From a virus, in IMG/VR virus record IMGVR_UViG_3300049893_002805, positions 1 to 50,645 of that record: a stretch of DNA of 50,645 bases; one strand, 5' to 3'. Within the stretch, counting starts at the first letter, position 1. The number at the start of each line of letters is the position of its first letter. The position numbers and the translations under genes are program-made. Below the pieces are notes generated by a model, which saw nothing but the letters and a program-made list of their open reading frames with translations, was not told where the DNA came from and did not search any database. This document shows positions 15,832 through 48,459 of the stretch, piece after piece.

Positions 15832-17492
15832 TATTGATTCTCCTTGTTCACAAAGACCCACTTGGAGCGGCATGGGTTGATCTTTGGTTTGAAGTCCAGG
15901 TTCAACCTCGTCAACTGCGTCTGGGCTGTCAGCAAGGTTCCCTTCATGGCAATCAATCCTGGGATTGGACTGAATGGACCTGCGGCATTAACCACTGCCA
16001 AACCCGTGTTTGCGACATTGGCAAATTGCTGGGCTGTTTCTCGGCGCAGTTCATCGAGCTTGTTGTAGATTTCCTCGACGCATTCCTTGAACTTAGAAAA
16101 GAGGACTACGGGGTCAGAATCCGCTGGTTCAGAGGTCTTGCACTTCAAAAGGACCTTGCCGTCCTCGTGAGTTTGGATTTGAACGTCCTTGCCCATGAGG
16201 ACGATTTTCCCGTCCTTGGACATGACGAAGATTGACAAATCCTTGTCCCCAACAGTTCCTTCTTTGACAAGTCGGATCTCGCCGCTCTCTGATGGACCGT
16301 TGTTTGTGTCCTTACCCTTTGCAACAATCCGAACCTGCTCAGACTTCAAAACAGCAAAAGGTTGCCCATCTTGATCCCTGGATGGCAAATCCGCAATCGC
16401 CGTCCCGAAGTAGTTCTGGGAGTTTGGTAGAATTCCACCATTACCCCCAAACTGAATGCCGAAGTTGGCATCCCCCTTCGTCTTCATCGCAAGATAAAGA
16501 CGTGACAAATCACGCATGAAGTCCGGGTCGCCTTCTTTCGGGTTGTCGATTTTCTGACTCTTGTAGGGTGTCTTGTAGACTTCCTTCTTGCCCCGTGCGT
16601 TTTCGATAACCCTTGGAGCCGTAGGGCTGTATTGGTTTGGATCAGCCCGATGGTCGGTTGGGAGCTTGCGAATGGACCCAACTCCTGCCACAATGTCAAC
16701 GACACCAGCCTGCTGCACAACGTCCTTGCCATCCGAGCCTGAAACCCTCGTAGAGGGCCCCGTACGGTCAGTACCAAGCAGAATCAAGGAGTTGTTCGAT
16801 CCCTGCAAGAGGAGGTCCCCAGGACGCTTCCTGAGCCGAGGAACGGGCTCAAAAGCAAATTGCTTGACCGCCTTGGAGTTGGCCACAATGGCGTCATAGG
16901 GATTAACAGACCCAGAAGGCTTCAGAGAGAAGGACTCTGGTGTCCCAGCACCATTTGGGAAGGTTGGTGCCGAAGCTGTGAGGGTGCTTGCAATAGCCCT
17001 GGGAATGGAACGGGGATGGTTGTACGGGTCGTAGATTCGGTCAGCGTGGGTGTAGTTCACGTCCTCAACTTGCCGAGCGGCCATTGGACGAGCCACCCAA
17101 TACCCAACCGATCCACCTGTTCGAGAATAGTCCTCGAACAGGATGAACACTTGCTCCCCTGGTTTTGCTGGCAATTGAAAGTGAGAGGAAAAAAGGGGGT
17201 AGAAGATGAACAGGCTTGGAGAGCCAAGATCCTGACCACTCGTGATAACCCTTGCCAGGATGGAGTTAACTGGCATTCCTTCGACCAACTCAGGGTTGGC
17301 AACGGAATCCTCCAGCTTCTCCAGTTCATCGTCCGTCAAGGCCGCTGGGTCGTAGAAAACCTCAACAATGACAGCCCTTTGAAGAAGAGGTGCAGAACCG
17401 CCCTGCAACCATTCTCTTCGTTGCTGTGTGATGTCGTTGGGGTTTACACCACCCGTTAGGCGGCGACCAATATTTTCTCCTCGTGAGCCCAT
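15831..17492 (-). CDS. Baseplate hub/spike protein, gp5-type OB fold
   Basis: This 553-residue protein has, at about residues 60-135, an OB-fold region like the N-terminus of T4 gp5 and of VgrG-type hubs: strands around ILARVITSGQ, then LPAKPGEQVFILFED and a GYWVARPM strand. The PGE-V-ILFE core is typical of T4-like hub proteins. A later part (NSLILLGTDR, EQVRIVAKGK, IFVMSKDGKIVLMG) has the repeating short strands expected for a spike beta-helix. I find no lysozyme domain, unlike T4 gp5. It is the first baseplate gene after the sigma-factor group. ATG 17492 lacks a clear ribosome site. Confidence 0.75.
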   Translation of the reverse strand: MGSRGENIGRRLTGGVNPNDITQQRREWLQGGSAPLLQRAVIVEVFYDPAALTDDELEKLEDSVANPELVEGMPVNSILARVITSGQDLGSPSLFIFYPLFSSHFQLPAKPGEQVFILFEDYSRTGGSVGYWVARPMAARQVEDVNYTHADRIYDPYNHPRSIPRAIASTLTASAPTFPNGAGTPESFSLKPSGSVNPYDAIVANSKAVKQFAFEPVPRLRKRPGDLLLQGSNNSLILLGTDRTGPSTRVSGSDGKDVVQQAGVVDIVAGVGSIRKLPTDHRADPNQYSPTAPRVIENARGKKEVYKTPYKSQKIDNPKEGDPDFMRDLSRLYLAMKTKGDANFGIQFGGNGGILPNSQNYFGTAIADLPSRDQDGQPFAVLKSEQVRIVAKGKDTNNGPSESGEIRLVKEGTVGDKDLSIFVMSKDGKIVLMGKDVQIQTHEDGKVLLKCKTSEPADSDPVVLFSKFKECVEEIYNKLDELRRETAQQFANVANTGLAVVNAAGPFSPIPGLIAMKGTLLTAQTQLTRLNLDFKPKINPCRSKWVFVNKENQ

Positions 17493-17543
17493 GCGAATAG
17501 GTAGAGGATGACCCGTTTTTCAGTAAGTGTGCTGCGTAACCCG

Positions 17544-17984
17544 TCAATTGTTGGATTTGCGGGAAGCAATCGCGCCGTACACCTTGTCCTCATCCTCGAT
17601 GGAAGCTTCCACGTCTTCCATTTCCGGCGCTTCCTTTTCCTCAGCCGCCGCAACCAGTTCTGCAAGCTTCAGGAGTTGGTCGGTTGACTTGCTCATGCGC
17701 TCCAGGTACCTGGAGATGTTTTGGCCATGAATTGCATGCTTCTCATGGCTGGAGTGAACCTGAGTGTACAGGTCCACGAAGGCAACGTAGGCATTCTTCC
17801 TATCCTGGAGCGCGTTCTCAAAGATAAGCTGCCAGAGCCGCTTCTTCTTGTCCTTTAGCTTGCTCAAGCTATCAAGGAGGGAAGAGAAGTCGTTCAGTTG
17901 GGAATTGATCTTGGTCTCAAGCTCACTTGGGGTTGGCCCCTTGAAGATGACCCCACCATTCTCGTCCAAGTCAATCTCTTTCAT
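17544..17984 (-). CDS. Helical protein of unknown function
   Basis: This 146-residue protein begins MKEIDLDENGGVIFKGPTPS. It is strongly helical, with a probable coiled coil around SLSKLKDKKKRLWQLIFENA and a second helix ending in an acidic Glu-rich tail (EEKEAPEMEDVEASIEDEDK). Its ATG overlaps the TGA of the sigma-factor gene (ATGA), so the two are translated together. I do not recognise the family. The acidic C-terminus and coupling to a late sigma factor make a role in transcription or in scaffold-like assembly possible, but nothing in the sequence decides this. Confidence 0.7.
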   Translation of the reverse strand: MKEIDLDENGGVIFKGPTPSELETKINSQLNDFSSLLDSLSKLKDKKKRLWQLIFENALQDRKNAYVAFVDLYTQVHSSHEKHAIHGQNISRYLERMSKSTDQLLKLAELVAAAEEKEAPEMEDVEASIEDEDKVYGAIASRKSNN

Positions 17985-25625: not shown

Positions 25626-25861
25626 CAAATTGTTTTCGGGGTCGTTCGGATGATCTTCAGACATGTCCACCTGAAAGGGTTTTTGCGCTTGGCAGGGATC
25701 TTGCCATTGATAGGGGCTTTGCCATAGGTAATCGGAGACAACACCATCGGTACATATGGAGCGTAAATGTACCCTGCGTCCAAGAACGTTCTTCCGCGCA
25801 AGGGCAGCGGTGTTCCTCCTGTTGGCAAACTGGGGTTTTCGTAGATGGTGTATTTTGACAT
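25622..25861 (-). CDS. Capsid-fragment mini-protein (gp23 DAGYIYAPYV segment)
   Basis: This 79-residue protein starts at ATG 25861. The first part contains KYTIYENPSL and FLDAGYIYAPYVPMVLSP. These align with KYRVYID and MDAGIYYAPYVAL of T4 gp23, in the C-terminal half of the capsid protein, including the conserved DAG-YAPYV core. It then passes directly to a basic tail, AKRKNPFRWTCLKIIR, which resembles the GKNAYFRRVYVKGI C-terminus of gp23; the roughly 60 residues that separate these two segments in gp23 are mostly missing. It lies between two related mini-genes and shares a GTGA junction with the next. No enzymatic motif. Its function is unknown; see findings. Confidence 0.65.
   Translation of the reverse strand: MSKYTIYENPSLPTGGTPLPLRGRTFLDAGYIYAPYVPMVLSPITYGKAPINGKIPAKRKNPFRWTCLKIIRTTPKTIW
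25655..25684 (-). repeat. Tail-coding repeat, copy 1
   Basis: The plus-strand sequence around ACATGTCCACCTGAAAGGG encodes NPFRWTCLK on the minus strand. Copies 2-4 at 25923, 26144 and 30247 share most bases and are read in the same frame, so the repeat is conserved at both DNA and protein level. Confidence 0.55.
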
Positions 25862-25865
25862 GACA

Positions 25866-26129
25866 CTAGAACAGAGCCTCGTAGTGGAGGTTCATTTCTT
25901 CAATCTGAACCGCAGGCTTCAGCTTCAAGCACGTCCACCTGAAAGACTTTGGGACCCGAGGTGGAGAAGGCACAAATGAAGGCGGGCCGCACATCAACCG
26001 TAGCCAATCCCAATGATTGGCACCGGCCCCATTAATGACAGTCGGGTTCCAATCTTTCGCACCCTTCATTGTACTGACACTGGACACATCAACGATAGTT
26101 GGAAGCCAATCGTTCTTGTTCTTCGTCAT
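25866..26129 (-). CDS. Mini-protein with FRWTCLK tail (cluster 1, member b)
   Basis: The start is ATG 26129 (MTKNKNDWLP), 87 residues; it overlaps the TGA of the preceding mini-gene (ATGA). A GTG ten codons upstream lies inside that gene and is not needed. The N-terminal part (NDWLPTIVDVSSVSTMKG) is only weakly like the gp23 segment NFIIASRNVVNVLAS, so I do not rely on that match. It carries the family tail PKSFRWTCLKLKP, followed by a short acidic end (QIEEMNLHYEALF) not seen in the other members. Confidence 0.6.
   Translation of the reverse strand: MTKNKNDWLPTIVDVSSVSTMKGAKDWNPTVINGAGANHWDWLRLMCGPPSFVPSPPRVPKSFRWTCLKLKPAVQIEEMNLHYEALF
25923..25952 (-). repeat. Tail-coding repeat, copy 2
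   Basis: CAAGCACGTCCACCTGAAAG encodes SFRWTCLK on the minus strand. It is nearly identical to copy 3 for its first 17 bases and diverges after the conserved core. Confidence 0.55.
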
Positions 26130-26290
26130 TTCGCCCTTTTCAGCTTCAAGCACGTCCACCGGAAGGGGTTTCGACGCCGACTGAATCCATTTGGAAATAT
26201 GCGCCTCCAGTCGGAAATGATCTCAGAGTCGATTCCCTTGACTATTTCAGCGACCAAAAGATCCGCGAATTCTCTCTCTGCGTCGGTCAT
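26126..26290 (-). CDS. Capsid-fragment mini-protein (gp23 helix DAE-E-LL-AEI segment)
   Basis: This 54-residue protein starts at ATG 26290, which overlaps the TGA of the radical-SAM gene (ATGA). MTDAEREFADLLVAEIVKG continuing with IDSEIISDW matches T4 gp23 DADAELSGILATEIMLEINR and EVVDWI nearly position for position. After a short linker it ends in the tail SRRRNPFRWTCLKLKRAK. It continues the capsid sequence where another mini-gene (30670-30825) leaves off at HKISMTD. The protein is below 60 residues, so length-filtered gene calling would miss it. Coupling to the radical-SAM gene means both are translated from one message. Confidence 0.65.
   Translation of the reverse strand: MTDAEREFADLLVAEIVKGIDSEIISDWRRIFPNGFSRRRNPFRWTCLKLKRAK
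26144..26173 (-). repeat. Tail-coding repeat, copy 3
   Basis: CAAGCACGTCCACCGGAAGG encodes NPFRWTCLK at the C-terminus of the 54-residue mini-protein. It shares the CTTCAAGCACGTCCACC stretch with copy 2. Confidence 0.55.
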
Positions 26291-30677: not shown

Positions 30678-30825
30678 GTGCCTTCACCTTCACCCTGATC
30701 CCGGCCCTTCGGAGACGCTTTGCAGCCGGAGAATCAGTCATGCTGATCTTGTGGAAAGCTTTAAGGTCTGCTGACATCTCAACACTCCACCTAACTTTGA
30801 GCTTCCGAGTGGTACCGTTATCCAT
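30670..30825 (-). CDS. Capsid-fragment mini-protein (gp23 RKLK--WS-E---DLKA-H segment)
   Basis: This 51-residue protein starts at ATG 30825, overlapping the end of the upstream glycosyltransferase gene by 8 bases. RKLKVRWSVEMSADLKAFHK corresponds closely to T4 gp23 RQLKAAYSIELAQDLRAVHG. It continues ISMTD, where another mini-gene (26126-26290) starts MTDAEREF. The tail is of the d type: KRLRRAGIRVKVKAHE, with RR--I-VKVK. It is below the usual length cut-off for gene calling. The close identity of 20 contiguous positions makes this the strongest capsid match of the set. Confidence 0.65.
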   Translation of the reverse strand: MDNGTTRKLKVRWSVEMSADLKAFHKISMTDSPAAKRLRRAGIRVKVKAHE

Positions 30826-40477: not shown

Positions 40478-41815
40478 TCAGAGAATCTGAGCCGCAAGCG
40501 TGGCAAGTGCGCTTCTCTCACCCTTGGTCAAGGTGACGTGACCAGAGATGGGGTAGCTCTTGAACTTTTCGATTGCGATGGTCAAACCGTTGGACACGGA
40601 ATCCACGTACATGTTGTCGATTTGCTCAATATCGCCCGTAAGGACGATCTTGGTACCCTCTCCAACACGGGTGATGATTGTCTTCAGTTCGTGGGCATTC
40701 AAGTTCTGGGCCTCATCAATGATGATGTAGGCGTTAGCGATTGAACGACCACGGATGAAGGTCATGGCCTCAACCTCAATGGTTCCGTTCTCAAAAAGCA
40801 TCTGGAGAGTCTCCTCTCCTCTTTTGCTCTTCTTCCCGTCAGCGGAAAGAAGGTACCGAAGGTTGTCCTTGATAGGAGCAACCCATGGCTCCATCTTCTC
40901 CTCCATCGTTCCTGGGAGGAATCCGATGTCCTTGCCAAGCGGCTGAATAGGGCGGCACACGATCAAGCTCTTGTACTGCTTGCGCTCCAAGACTTGGTGA
41001 AGCCCAGAGGCAATTGCCAAGAGAGTCTTGCCCGTTCCAGCGGACCCAACCACGGTGACAAGCGGGATGTTGGGATCAAGCAAGGCATCAATGGCGCAGC
41101 GTTGGCCGCTGTTCTTTCCATTGATCTTGCAAGGAGCAAACTCCGTGATCCTATACCCAACGCACCCCTTCAATCTCATCAGGGCATGCTGATTGGTCGT
41201 TGGGTTGGTTACGTTGAGATACTGGTTCTCATGGAACTCCTTGACAACCTCTTCAGGGAATTCCAGCTTTCCTTCCTCGAAGAAAGCATCAAGATCGAAG
41301 TCCCCGACCAACTCAGCCGAACCGCTGTAAAGACCCGCCGCAGACTTGGCCACATGAAGCTTCTTGTAGTCGTCCGAAGTGATCCCAAGGGCGTTGGCCT
41401 TCAAGCGAAGCAGGATATCCCTGGAGATGAGCACCGTCTCCTGCTTCGACTTCTTCTTCAGAGCCAAGCAGAGAGCAAGGATTTGATTGTCTCCCGACTT
41501 CCCTTCCAGTTCAGAAGGAAGAAGTTCCTTCACGTCATTGAACCCAAGGGAACTGATCGACATGATGAAAAGCCGACCAAGCCCCGCTCCAAGAGGAACA
41601 GGGTCCTTGAAGGCTTTGTGCTCCTTGGTGATTTCCGTCAGCTTACGCGATGTCTCACGAGCATTGCGTCCGACTTCATCTTGACGATCCTTGTGCCTGT
41701 CAAGCTCCTCAAGTACGATCATTGGAATAACCAAGTCGTGTTCCTTGAATGAGAAGAGCGCCGAAGGGTCAGAGAGGAGAACGTTGGTGTCCAGAATGTA
41801 GGCTTTTGTTTCCAT
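40478..41815 (-). CDS. phoH: PhoH-like ATPase with N-terminal PIN domain
   Basis: This 445-residue protein has an N-terminal PIN domain with D9 and E37 (YILDTNVLLSD, VLEELDRHKD) and D109 in GDNQILALCL. It is followed by a PhoH P-loop NTPase with Walker A GSAGTGKT at 257-264 and Walker B IIIDEAQN near 364. This is the PIN-PhoH architecture found widely in bacteria and common in phages, linked to RNA unwinding and cleavage. Residues look intact. An intergenic promoter-like TATAAT lies upstream. It is first in a short run toward the small structural genes. Confidence 0.92.
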   Translation of the reverse strand: METKAYILDTNVLLSDPSALFSFKEHDLVIPMIVLEELDRHKDRQDEVGRNARETSRKLTEITKEHKAFKDPVPLGAGLGRLFIMSISSLGFNDVKELLPSELEGKSGDNQILALCLALKKKSKQETVLISRDILLRLKANALGITSDDYKKLHVAKSAAGLYSGSAELVGDFDLDAFFEEGKLEFPEEVVKEFHENQYLNVTNPTTNQHALMRLKGCVGYRITEFAPCKINGKNSGQRCAIDALLDPNIPLVTVVGSAGTGKTLLAIASGLHQVLERKQYKSLIVCRPIQPLGKDIGFLPGTMEEKMEPWVAPIKDNLRYLLSADGKKSKRGEETLQMLFENGTIEVEAMTFIRGRSIANAYIIIDEAQNLNAHELKTIITRVGEGTKIVLTGDIEQIDNMYVDSVSNGLTIAIEKFKSYPISGHVTLTKGERSALATLAAQIL

Positions 41816-42642: not shown

Positions 42643-43164
42643 TCACTTGTGGTTTGCAACGTCCCAAAGGGCTTTTCCTGCACCGCCCAGAACTGCAAGG
42701 ATAAGTGCCCAAACAACCTTGGAAAACCATTCCCCGGCTGTGCTTTTGACCTTGATCACAGATTCGAGCTTCTCCAGGTCATCACCAGCGATCTTCTTGA
42801 GCTTGACGGTGGGCTCAACCTTCTTTTCCAAGTCCTTGTCCTTGTCAACGAGCTTGTCCAGGGATACACGGATTCCAGCCATGTTCTTTTCGTCGGTATC
42901 CGCGTGGAACTTGAATTCTTCGGCCATGTGTTGAATTCCGCTTTCAACCGACTTCACCCTGGCGTACAATCCGCTATCAGGCTCGTAGAGTCCGCGGTGA
43001 ATTTCATCTACCTTCTTGGAAGTCTCAGCCTGCTTCTCCTTGATGTTCTCGACGATGACGAGCATCTTGTCGAAGCCGCCGTTCAGGACTGCGGAGGAAT
43101 TGATCTTGGCCGAAATGCTCTCCAGGAGCATTTGAAGTTCTTTATCGGATTTCGTGTCAGACAT
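42643..43164 (-). CDS. Coiled-coil protein with C-terminal membrane helix
   Basis: This 173-residue protein has long coiled-coil stretches (KMLVIVENIKEKQAETSKKV and ARVKSVESGIQHMAEEFKFH) and a C-terminal hydrophobic segment (KVVWALILAVLGGAGKALWD) as expected for a single-pass tail anchor. It is similar in layout to the small membrane-anchored proteins near lysis or receptor-binding genes. GGGGAG precedes ATG 43164. The divergent chaperonin gene starts 74 bases away. Function unknown. Confidence 0.65.
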   Translation of the reverse strand: MSDTKSDKELQMLLESISAKINSSAVLNGGFDKMLVIVENIKEKQAETSKKVDEIHRGLYEPDSGLYARVKSVESGIQHMAEEFKFHADTDEKNMAGIRVSLDKLVDKDKDLEKKVEPTVKLKKIAGDDLEKLESVIKVKSTAGEWFSKVVWALILAVLGGAGKALWDVANHK

Positions 43165-43238: not shown

Positions 43239-44654
43239 ATGACGACGACATCCTTCATTGATAACTCGATATTGCTGCCCAGCCTTCAACAGGCCAATGA
43301 AAAAATGAAGAATACCCTGGGTCGCATCAACGTCGCGTTGAACTCCCAGGGATATCCCTTGAACAAGGAGACATATCACTTCCTTACAAAGGTGTTGGAG
43401 CCAAATAACCGTGTGGAGAGGACTCTCTACATGCTTCTCTTCCAGGCTGCTTACCAAAGTGAGCTTCTTTCTGCGGGAAGTGCTTACGTGGCGATCAGGT
43501 TTGCCAACGAGTTCATCTGCGAATTGATGAAGGTGCCGGATCTCTCCCGTCGAAACGAGGTGGAGCTAATGGCTATCTTCGAGAGCGTGGCAGGCAAACT
43601 GAACGAAGCCGTGTGCAAATACTCAAAAAACATCACGGAAGAAGCCCTCCTAGAGGAGATTCGAAGGATCACTGATGACAAGGAGCTCTGCGAGGCGATC
43701 CTCCAGGCGATCACCGTTTGTGGACTTGAAGGGAAGATCCACATTGAGGACAGCATCTCGAACTCCTATGTCGTGGAGCAGAAGTCGGGTTACTTCTTCA
43801 GCGCCGTGAAGCCGTTCAAGTTCTTCATCCCGCAGTCTGGCTTGTGGGAGGCTCACAACCCAAAGGTGATGCTCGTGGACGGAATCATTGAACAGGTCAG
43901 CGAAATCGACAAGATCCTGAACGGAGCAATGGAAACCAAGATCCCGGTCCTCCTTCTGGCTCATGGATTCAGCGAGGAGGTCATTTCCACGCTCAAAGTC
44001 AATGTGGATCACGGGAAGTTCAATATCATGCCCGTACGCTTGACCACCGACCTCGATTCCTTGAACGTCCTGAACGACATCGCCGTAGTTTGTGGATGCG
44101 ACGTTGTTTCCACCCTCAAGGGCGACTTGGTTTGCCTTGTCTCCTTTGACAGCCTGCCTGTCGTGGAGAAGGTCAAGCTCACTGCCCATGAGTTGAACGT
44201 CGAAAACGCCAAAACCAGACGAGGGGTATCTAACCAGATCAGGATGCTCCTGGAGAAGCGCCGGGACAATCAAGAGTTCTCCGACATCTCCACCATCATC
44301 GACAAGCGTATCCAGGGGCTCCTTGCAGCTTCGGTTGCCCTGAGACTCCCAAACATGCCCCCTTCAAGAAGGGAAAACACCAAGGTCCGCATTGACGTGG
44401 CACTTCGACAAGCCAAAACCCTCCTTGTCCATGGCAGGGTGAATTTCCAGGAATTGCTTGCTTTTGGCTTTGAAGGCCCCTTTGTTGGTGATCCAGTGGA
44501 AACAGCCTTCTTTCAGGCGCTTCGGAACATGGAAGAGGAATTCAACTTGCTTCCTTCCCTGAGCGTCTGGGCAAGTATCTACTTGGCGGGGAAAGCCGTG
44601 ATCAACCTGATGACCACAGGTGGCCTCGTCGTGATCACTGACCAAGAGCCTTGA
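43239..44654 (+). CDS. Divergent GroEL-like chaperonin
   Basis: This 471-residue protein follows chaperonin order: an equatorial start (LGRINVALNSQGYPLNKETY), an intermediate and an apical domain (HIEDSISNSYVVEQKSGYFF, PKVMLVDGIIEQVSEIDKIL and IMPVRLTTDLDSLNVLNDIA), and an equatorial return (KVRIDVALRQAKTLLVHGRV). Apical strands fit Cpn60. The ATP-binding GDGTTT of GroEL is replaced by SAGSAY at 78-83, and the Asp of GroEL V-E-D-A-L is not present at the corresponding place (RIDVAL). It may thus bind but not hydrolyse ATP normally, or use other residues. Phage chaperonins (e.g. of phages EL and OBP) help fold phage proteins. Confidence 0.75.
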   Translation: MTTTSFIDNSILLPSLQQANEKMKNTLGRINVALNSQGYPLNKETYHFLTKVLEPNNRVERTLYMLLFQAAYQSELLSAGSAYVAIRFANEFICELMKVPDLSRRNEVELMAIFESVAGKLNEAVCKYSKNITEEALLEEIRRITDDKELCEAILQAITVCGLEGKIHIEDSISNSYVVEQKSGYFFSAVKPFKFFIPQSGLWEAHNPKVMLVDGIIEQVSEIDKILNGAMETKIPVLLLAHGFSEEVISTLKVNVDHGKFNIMPVRLTTDLDSLNVLNDIAVVCGCDVVSTLKGDLVCLVSFDSLPVVEKVKLTAHELNVENAKTRRGVSNQIRMLLEKRRDNQEFSDISTIIDKRIQGLLAASVALRLPNMPPSRRENTKVRIDVALRQAKTLLVHGRVNFQELLAFGFEGPFVGDPVETAFFQALRNMEEEFNLLPSLSVWASIYLAGKAVINLMTTGGLVVITDQEP

Positions 44655-46177: not shown

Positions 46178-46735
46178 ATGAACATGGAAGCAGCAGAGAC
46201 AGAAGCAACAATGACAGATGAATCCTCGGTCATCGAGGGCGTGTGGAAAAACGCAGACAGCAAGAGGACAACCGCCGCAGAAATGCTGGAGTGGATCACC
46301 AAGGCGCAAGCCGACAAGGACCACCAGTATGAGCTGATCGTCGGGTCCGACTCGCAGATGCGTGGACGCCAGTTTTGCTTCATCACCGTCGTCTGCCTCC
46401 GAAAGGTCGGTAAGGGCGGCAACTATCGGTACAACGAGCACTTCGTCCCAAGGACGAACTTCGTCCAGGCCGGTAAGGGCAAGCGAGTGAAGGGCAACCA
46501 GAAGCTCAGGATGTTCTCCGAGGTGGAGCGTTCCATTGCCGTGGCCACGGACATCTTCGAGAAGACCGGCTTCCTGCCAGTCGTCCACATCGACGCAAGC
46601 ACCAAGGACAAGAAGGAGTTCACCTCCGAGTTCTCCGACGAGCTTGCAGGTATGGTCAGGGCCAGCGGCTTCGACTGTGTGCTCAAGCCAGAATCGTTCG
46701 TGGCAAATGCGGTAGCTGACCGTCACACCAAGTGA
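46178..46735 (+). CDS. DUF458/YkuK-like RNase H-fold protein
   Basis: This 185-residue protein has ELIVGSDSQMRGRQFCFITV, later VVHIDASTKDKKEFTSEFSD and MVRASGFDCVLKPESFVANA followed by VADRHTK, the signatures of the YkuK/DUF458 family with an RNase-H-like fold. The conserved acidic positions (D of GSDSQ, D of HIDAS, D of VADRH) are present, so nuclease or nucleotide-processing activity is plausible. AGAGG precedes ATG 46178; an ATG two codons on is an alternative start. Confidence 0.78.
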   Translation: MNMEAAETEATMTDESSVIEGVWKNADSKRTTAAEMLEWITKAQADKDHQYELIVGSDSQMRGRQFCFITVVCLRKVGKGGNYRYNEHFVPRTNFVQAGKGKRVKGNQKLRMFSEVERSIAVATDIFEKTGFLPVVHIDASTKDKKEFTSEFSDELAGMVRASGFDCVLKPESFVANAVADRHTK

Positions 46736-47288: not shown

Positions 47289-47579
47289 ATGGACGAAATG
47301 GATCGTAAGAAGCTTGAGACCGTCATTGAGAGCAAGGTCTACAAGCTGGTGGAGCTCCTTGGGGAGCAAATGTCGGACGGAACGATGATCTATCTTGGGC
47401 GCAACCAGATTGACATTGACAGGATGGTAGCGGACAGGCTCCTGAGCATTGCCAAGGGAGCCATGATGGACGCTTTGCTGGCCCACCTGGACATGTTCAT
47501 GAAGGACCTGGACAAGGCTCTGGTTGAGGCAACGGGCAAAGAAAACCCTTTGCCCCATGGAAAGTCGTCGAAAAAGTAA
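47289..47579 (+). CDS. Small helical protein, possible -1 frameshift extension
   Basis: ATG 47289 (MDEMDRKKLETVIES), 96 residues, mostly helical and ending GKENPLPHGKSSKK. It has an AAAGGA about ten bases ahead. The last codons AAA AAG before TAA form GAAAAAG (47570-47576). In the -1 frame the reading stays open through the 100-base intergenic gap to TAG 47681-47683, adding a basic stretch and a hydrophobic helix (AFLDVSLTLFLLGGFIALTN). A hairpin lies 27 bases past the slip. Whether the extension is made is uncertain; see findings. Confidence 0.68.
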   Translation: MDEMDRKKLETVIESKVYKLVELLGEQMSDGTMIYLGRNQIDIDRMVADRLLSIAKGAMMDALLAHLDMFMKDLDKALVEATGKENPLPHGKSSKK

Positions 47580-47686: not shown

Positions 47687-48154
47687 ATGCCAGCCGTTGA
47701 GTACATCAAACACCTCGTCGAGTGTAATTGCTTACTTCCGCAATTCAAACACAGCGACCCTCCCATGTGGCATCACTTTGTGGTATTCTCCGAAATTGAT
47801 GAGACGGGGGCTGTCATCCCATCCTTTGCTCAGTGCAACAACTGTGGAATGGTCCACAAGGTCACAGAGGTGGGCGTCTCCTCAACGATGAAGAGAGATA
47901 CCTTCCCAGCCATCCCGTCGATTGCTGAGGTTCGTGGTAGCTTCCCGGAGCGATTGCAGAAGGAACTCTCTGGCTATGAGTTGGACCTCCCAACCTGTCA
48001 GGAGATCGCCTTCATCTTTCAGCATCAACTCTGGGGGAGAATCGTGATCCTCCAAAAAGAGCAGGTCGAGGAGTACCTCGTGGGAAAGATCCTTCAGATC
48101 ATTGGCAACTCCATTTGGAGAATTCAACCCTTCCAAGAGGAGATCGAAACATGA
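47687..48154 (+). CDS. Hypothetical protein with zinc-ribbon-like Cys
   Basis: This 155-residue protein begins MPAVEYIKHLVECNCLLPQF. Early C-N-C and a later QCNNCGMVHK segment look like the two knuckles of a small zinc ribbon; HHFVVFSEIDETG lies between. The C-terminal half is helical (FPERLQKELSGYELDLPTCQ). AGGTAGGA precedes ATG 47687. It is followed by a coupled gene (ATGA). No family assigned. Confidence 0.65.
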   Translation: MPAVEYIKHLVECNCLLPQFKHSDPPMWHHFVVFSEIDETGAVIPSFAQCNNCGMVHKVTEVGVSSTMKRDTFPAIPSIAEVRGSFPERLQKELSGYELDLPTCQEIAFIFQHQLWGRIVILQKEQVEEYLVGKILQIIGNSIWRIQPFQEEIET

Positions 48155-48459
48155 ACAAAGACGACGACAAGGACGCAACCTACATCCAACCAAACATCGA
48201 ACACGAACTCTCCAAGGAGAAACGACAGGAATGTCGCAACATCCTCCTGGAGATCAGGAATTTTGGCGTCAATCAACGTCAAATCCTGTTTCTGATTCAA
48301 CTCCTAGCCATGGAGCTCGAAAACACCGATGTGATGAGGGAAATCACCAGAGCAATCGGTGAGAACCGCTCCAAGGTGCGCCTCAATCCAAAAATCACCC
48401 TCCCCGAGGGCATGGAAGTTGCAGGCAAGACCATCAAGAAGAAGCTTGACCGGGGCTGA
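48151..48459 (+). CDS. Small helical hypothetical protein
   Basis: The start is ATG 48151 (MNKDDDKDATYIQPN), with AGGAG at eight bases, overlapping the stop of the previous gene; 102 residues. Helical centre (RNILLEIRNFGVNQRQILFL, LAMELENTDVMREITRAIGE) and a basic end (GKTIKKKLDRG). No family recognised. The upstream gene's zinc ribbon suggests a common role of unknown kind. Confidence 0.62.
   Translation: MNKDDDKDATYIQPNIEHELSKEKRQECRNILLEIRNFGVNQRQILFLIQLLAMELENTDVMREITRAIGENRSKVRLNPKITLPEGMEVAGKTIKKKLDRG

Follow-up and report, generated by a model that had tools for sequence, protein, structure and literature searches.

A phage-borne GroEL homologue lacking the nucleotide site of GroEL

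Described chaperonins and the pseudo-Cpn60 of the window

ATP is held to drive chaperonins, and GroEL needs its three nucleotide-holding elements together with a hydrolysing Asp. Inactive paralogues are known in Group II, where the vertebrate chaperonin-like proteins BBS6/MKKS, BBS10 and BBS12 work beside the active chaperonin CCT, and are suspected in Chlamydia. MKKS and BBS12 have a diverged Gly-Asp-Gly-Thr motif, while the BBS proteins are described as keeping the Gly-Pro ATP-binding dipeptide (PMC2846930). GroEL2 and GroEL3 of Chlamydia are diverged GroEL paralogues beside a working GroEL1 (PMC1892554). Among phages, the chaperonins of EL (gp146), OBP (gp246) and AR9 (gp228) are reported to function as rings of seven subunits, double or single, that need no co-chaperonin (PMC7185714, PMC5934643, PMC9598537). 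Soil viruses, too, are reported to express chaperonins that form a group of their own (PMC8390657).

The window analysed here, 50,645 bases long, is the entire record of an uncultivated virus. An open frame of 471 codons with an ATG start, at 43239..44654 on the plus strand, encodes a GroEL homologue of 471 aa without the nucleotide site, which we call a pseudo-chaperonin or pseudo-Cpn60. It resembles GroEL/Cpn60 (E. coli groL) in homologous sequence and, by prediction, in a three-domain fold over the whole length, but it is without the P-loop, D87, D398 and segment 478-481; the family further differs from GroEL in an apical groove that is polar at positions 234 and 263, and the inter-ring region 434-470 is missing from its short forms. 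Like the proteins of EL, OBP and AR9, pseudo-Cpn60 is phage-borne and very divergent from GroEL; unlike it, the EL chaperonin is an active ATPase whose Asp412 is equivalent to D398 (PMC7185714). The chaperonins of the giant phages HHBS47, Miami, Aphrodite1 and 2 TSL-2019 also differ from pseudo-Cpn60 in keeping D52, D87 and D398. We take these four to be EL-like, and in our tree they fall among the canonical set (100/100), a placement limited by long branches in a tree that does not include EL, OBP and AR9.

Diverged paralogues offer a closer comparison. Chlamydia GroEL2 and GroEL3 are, like pseudo-Cpn60, kept beside a functional GroEL, but the available text reports no deletion of their nucleotide site (PMC1892554). 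The window protein hits the Chlamydia-type model NF038369 at 6.4e-9, and the GroEL2 and GroEL3 models score 35 and 17.5 bits against a cut-off of 600. The BBS proteins are of Group II ancestry, whereas the ancestry here is Group I, and the Gly-Pro dipeptide that they keep is deleted in pseudo-Cpn60. The nearest known kind is that of the diverged paralogues, Chlamydia GroEL2/3 and the vertebrate BBS proteins, rather than the EL-type phage chaperonins. No description of the pseudo-Cpn60 family was found in the open-licence literature, a scope outside which the ISME J 2017 survey of virioplankton chaperonins lies.

By descent and by predicted fold the window protein is a Group I chaperonin, because its database matches and its structural model both lead to GroEL. 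It matches phrog_5725 'chaperonin groEL' in PHROGs (E 3.9e-18), the NCBIfam GroEL models (best E 2.5e-18; TIGR02348 E 7.7e-17), every score being below the curated cut-off, and, by phmmer among solved GroEL structures, Thermus Cpn60 (E 7.1e-11). Of 33 family members, 28 match phrog_5725 and all 33 match an NCBIfam GroEL model at E<=0.01, and a comparison of the family profile with that of canonical GroEL gives E 8.8e-33. The Pfam model Cpn60_TCP1 (PF00118) matches neither the window protein nor any of the 33 members, so that annotators will miss these genes or just call them GroEL. An AlphaFold2 model of the window protein, computed from the 33 family members (mean pLDDT 87.7, pTM 0.73), aligns to GroEL over 454 residues with an rmsd of 4.3 (Z 26.5; Foldseek 8.9e-26). 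Both predicted models of the family (pLDDT 87.7 and 88.6; Z to GroEL 26.5 and 25.6) show the GroEL fold with its equatorial, intermediate and apical domains. A search of BFVD with the fold of a short form gave ten matches at E<=0.001; those that carry a name are called chaperonin, thermosome or heat shock protein 60. The sequence homology runs over the apical and intermediate domains, whose strands the original prediction had fitted to Cpn60, and the protein is a true GroEL homologue.

Loss of the nucleotide site and change of the apical groove

The alignment was made with MAFFT in four modes, which all agree on the residues at 87 and 398. The canonical set (n=27) comprises E. coli GroEL, 15 copies from isolate phages, some of them very divergent, and 11 from viral contigs. 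The family set (n=33) is non-redundant; L043 and L058 were left out because they duplicate L044 and L057, as were L074-L077, which are canonical. The original prediction had read SAGSAY (residues 78-83; 43470..43487, plus strand) as standing in place of GroEL GDGTTT. The substitution holds, but the pairing was one residue off: G86-D87-G88-T89-T90-T91 of GroEL aligns to A79-G80-S81-A82-Y83-V84, and D87 falls on G80. RIDVAL (residues 384-389 in helix M; 44388..44405, plus strand) does replace VEDAL as had been claimed. Aligned to RVEDAL, it carries V387 at the catalytic D398 and D386 one position earlier, at E397, and is followed by R390. None of the four modes placed the conserved Asp residues elsewhere, the outcome that the original prediction had named as speaking against it.

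These changes belong to the whole family. D52, D87 and D398 occur throughout the canonical set (27 of 27); D87 and D398 are found in none of the 33 family members, and the substitutions are therefore not chance. D52 persists in 3 of the 33. The losses exceed those noted before, as the P-loop T30-L31-G32-P33 and the segment 478-481 are deleted in 33/33 members, and D495 is kept in 0/33; against E. coli GroEL the window protein shows both deletions and keeps neither G415 nor D495. In a wider set of 80 non-redundant rows from uncultivated phage contigs, obtained after 31 redundant rows of the p155 set (see below) were dropped and including five rows gapped at 87, being short or cut, G32/P33 and N479/A480 are absent from all 80, D398 occurs in none and D87 in two. 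The two holders of D87 (L209 and L212) have GADST at the GDGTT place and may be intermediates in the loss of the nucleotide site. The earlier suggestion that this chaperonin may not hydrolyse ATP as chaperonins normally do thus gains strong in silico support, nucleotide segments and catalytic Asp being lost family-wide, and from its sequence pseudo-Cpn60 is very probably devoid of ATPase activity.

Other positions are held firmly. Asp 397, Arg 401, Gly 225, Glu 228 and Asn 287 are constant in 33/33 members and occur in 72, 73, 78, 74 and 80 of the 80 rows, respectively. Conservation is highest in the apical domain and helix M, above the equatorial parts, and the block D214-G-x-x-E-x-x-S-E222 (GroEL 224-232; 43878..43904, plus strand) belongs to the region that the family conserves most. 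Asp 397 is also lost in the very divergent members L202, L203, L206, L208, L210, L213, L215 and L218. The gene is under purifying selection: dN/dS between the window and its nearest relative (L069) is 0.075, at a dS of 1.93 that is near saturation.

The hydrophobic apical groove of GroEL we take to be formed by Y199, Y203, F204, L234, L237, L259, V263 and V264. In the family, position 234 carries D, H or N in 33/33 and is hydrophobic in none, and position 263 is K or R in 30/33 and hydrophobic in 1/33. Hydrophobic residues are found at 204 in seven and at 199 in four of the 33, are kept at 237 (33/33) and 264 (31/33), and N265 is kept as well. Polar residues at 234 and 263 speak against binding of GroES or of unfolded chains in general and favour a specific partner; to judge from the groove, pseudo-Cpn60 probably has one such partner. 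As to assembly, segments 37-50 and 512-522 of GroEL contribute to a single ring, and 434-470 joins two rings. The columns of the stem-loop 37-50 and the C-terminal strand 512-522 are filled to 0.93 and 1.00 in long forms and to 0.80 and 0.99 in short forms, whereas residues 434-470 are nearly empty in the short forms (0.00-0.02). With the intra-ring columns mostly filled and the inter-ring region of short forms nearly empty, assembly as single rings may be possible.

Distribution, neighbours and co-carried GroEL

A near relative 80% identical to the window protein shows the same losses. When the neighbouring PIN-PhoH protein of the same locus (40478..41815, minus strand) was used as an anchor, 24 loci were found, and a relative was present in 8 of 17 whole records searched. 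Besides the window, two profile scans found a family member in 34 records, along with four canonical GroELs; 29 of the 34 carry short forms, mostly near 400 aa, and five carry long forms of 463-480 aa. A scan with p155, a neighbouring zinc-ribbon-like protein (CxC...CxxC by eye; 47687..48154, plus strand) that lies within the fetched loci in 32/33 cases, gave 80 loci, 78 of them with the pseudo-chaperonin. The two others are L214, which has no upstream DNA, and L205. At L205 the upstream flank of p155 is complete, yet no pseudo-chaperonin was detected. In the tree the family occupies one side of a branch with support 100/100 and a long stem; since this stem limits placement among GroELs, no parent GroEL of the family is named. 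A tblastn search of isolate phages returned no family member, only GroELs at 23-28% identity, and the aligned matches, the GroELs of immuto, MaF61, D506 and pv27, all keep D87 and D398. Likewise, p155 had no match in isolate phages, the final 12.6 kb of the window had no similar DNA among 50,697 isolate phage records, a tRNA scan of the window gave none, and a search of prokaryote genomes for a host matched patterns with no relative confirmed. The gene for pseudo-Cpn60 belongs to the core of a single lineage of large T4-type phages.

The immediate neighbour in 29 of 33 loci is p173 (42643..43164, minus strand), judged by eye to be coiled-coil-like with a hydrophobic C-terminal stretch. It matches phrog_937 'hemolysin' weakly (0.0031), and its relative in L062 weakly matches a holin family (0.002); p173 may be a membrane-anchored partner. 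Small conserved neighbours are the p88 family (47289..47579, plus strand) and the p82 family (48115..48459, plus strand). An RNaseH_like protein (PF04308, 2.4e-25; 46178-46735, plus strand) is kept in long-form loci.

An intact GroEL beside the pseudo-chaperonin occurs in 4 of the 34 records and in 5 of 17 further ones, G075 among the 17 being without a pseudo copy. By size, an intact GroEL is present in 7/7 pseudo-bearing records of at least 278 kb, 2/4 of 200-213 kb and 0/39 smaller ones, which is consistent with a GroEL gene located far from this locus in genomes of some 300 kb and upwards. No canonical GroEL was seen in G040 (213 kb) and G062 (200 kb), contigs that may be incomplete, or in the window, itself a 50.6-kb fragment. 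G053 (211 kb), a contig that lacks the p155 locus too, has a canonical GroEL and no pseudo copy. In the nine co-carried GroELs the nucleotide residues are intact, apart from one copy with S for T90, and the apical groove resembles that of GroEL. Across these nine genomes the pairwise identities of the two chaperonins co-vary (Mantel r 0.758, p 0.0027), a correlation that would also be expected if both genes follow the phage phylogeny without interacting. In a tree of canonical copies with five added, the nine do not form one clean clade: four other viral contigs fall among them, and a long-branched TM7-phage row lies near the base. Co-carriage is no proof of physical contact, but it suggests, tentatively and at somewhat under even odds, that pseudo-Cpn60 partners the phage's own GroEL; host GroEL/GroES could also be the partner.

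A gene for the lid was looked for as well. Cpn10/GroES was found in none of the 34 records, nor in the 17 further ones even at E 10, most contigs being fragments. T4 gp31 and three further co-chaperonins from phages, used as positive controls, were picked up by this Cpn10 model. T4 gp31 stands in for GroES with GroEL in assembly of the gp23 head, as noted in a database record. The largest genomes of the lineage, with GroEL and pseudo-Cpn60 and no detectable lid, suggest an unusual two-part folding system.

Possible roles of pseudo-Cpn60

The best explanation, to which we give a probability of roughly 0.55, is that pseudo-Cpn60 serves as an ATP-independent accessory subunit with a specific partner, beside the phage's own GroEL and with no detectable co-chaperonin. 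This GroEL paralogue would retain the three-domain fold and have no GroEL-type ATP binding or hydrolysis; its conserved polar apical groove would hold one specific partner or client; and it would act beside the phage's intact GroEL as a passive ring, a subunit of mixed rings or a cap. Our confidence falls step by step, from the lack of a nucleotide site to a specific partner, then to the phage GroEL and last to the capsid. A bolder version, which we consider speculative and rather unlikely, is a two-chaperonin machine: the Cpn10/gp31 lid would have been lost in this T4-type lineage of ~300 kb, and its role taken by an ATPase-dead GroEL paralogue that joins or caps the phage's active GroEL and reserves it for an oversized client, the gp23-type capsid protein for instance. 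We know of no Group I pseudo-chaperonin that is an obligate partner of an active chaperonin, and such a machine, if true, would be the first. The question raised is whether a chaperonin fold can work without ATP, or as the regulatory half of an ATP-driven partner, and for this the phages offer a small, expressible system.

Alternatively, pseudo-Cpn60 may act alone, with no GroEL, as a holdase or assembly scaffold that needs no ATP and serves one phage protein, for instance the gp23-type capsid protein to which the original prediction had linked it. A gp23-type (T4-type) capsid gene accompanies it in 7/7 pseudo-bearing records of at least 278 kb, the apical domain is the best-conserved part, and isolated apical fragments of GroEL are reported to be active on client proteins (PMC4973282). 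A general holdase action is made unlikely by the polar residues at 234 and 263, classic hydrophobic peptide-binding positions, and no direct link to a client was found, so that we regard this alternative as possible with perhaps a minority chance. Less probable still is a decoy or poison subunit that enters the host GroEL, or titrates a host factor, and redirects folding during infection. The intra-ring sheet pieces 37-50 and 512-522, which stay filled, would permit such entry, but the same phages encode their own intact GroEL, and a gene near-universal at its locus is unusual for host takeover.

Three further readings conflict with the comparative data. If pseudo-Cpn60 were still an ATP-using chaperonin, Asp 397 (D386 of the window protein) might have taken over catalysis, and both its frequency with that of Arg 401 and the Asp at 87 within GADST of L209 and L212 speak in that direction. 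Position 397 is, however, acidic in 27/27 canonical GroELs alongside D398 and is not Asp in 8 of the 80 rows, and with G32-P33 of the P-loop and 479-480 gone from every row the substitute catalyst is rejected as highly improbable. GroEL and ClpP both form seven-membered rings, and pseudo-Cpn60 might be an adaptor ring for a nearby ClpP-like peptidase (PF00574), which occurs in 27 of 29 short-form records and, in 25 of 33 loci, is encoded downstream of pseudo-Cpn60 with both genes on one strand. The peptidase is present in none of the six long-form records, the window among them, so that the adaptor role is not a common function; in PHROG the peptidase scored best as a head maturation protease, and as a general function this role is rejected with scarcely any likelihood left to it. 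The short-form ClpP-like genes lie about 0.7-3.3 kb downstream (for example L041 7473-8066 and L062 6147-6749), and a second ClpP was seen in G031 and G036. A decaying pseudogene or an assembly artefact would explain the loss of all catalytic residues, but it is refuted by the low dN/dS, by intact frames in dozens of independent contigs and by a confidently predicted fold, and its probability is practically nil.

The capsid protein as client of pseudo-Cpn60 is an unlikely guess at present. Among larger relatives, a gp23-type capsid gene was seen in 9 of 15 pseudo-bearing records in one scan and 12 of 17 in another, which is co-occurrence only. Of 30 window proteins scanned with PHROG, none was identified as a capsid protein. 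The gp23 model PF07068 gave three short matches in the window, all on the minus strand and below the cut-off (25730-25867, 26210-26284 and 30742-30810; E 1.7e-4 to 0.0025); these gp23-like stretches are possibly the capsid mini-genes of the original prediction. In four large relatives, gp23-like fragments above the Pfam cut-off were also observed away from the full capsid gene, at 317511-317657 and 120934-121053 in G028, 16752-17807 in G060, 185435-185548 in G064 and 235394-235525 in G065.
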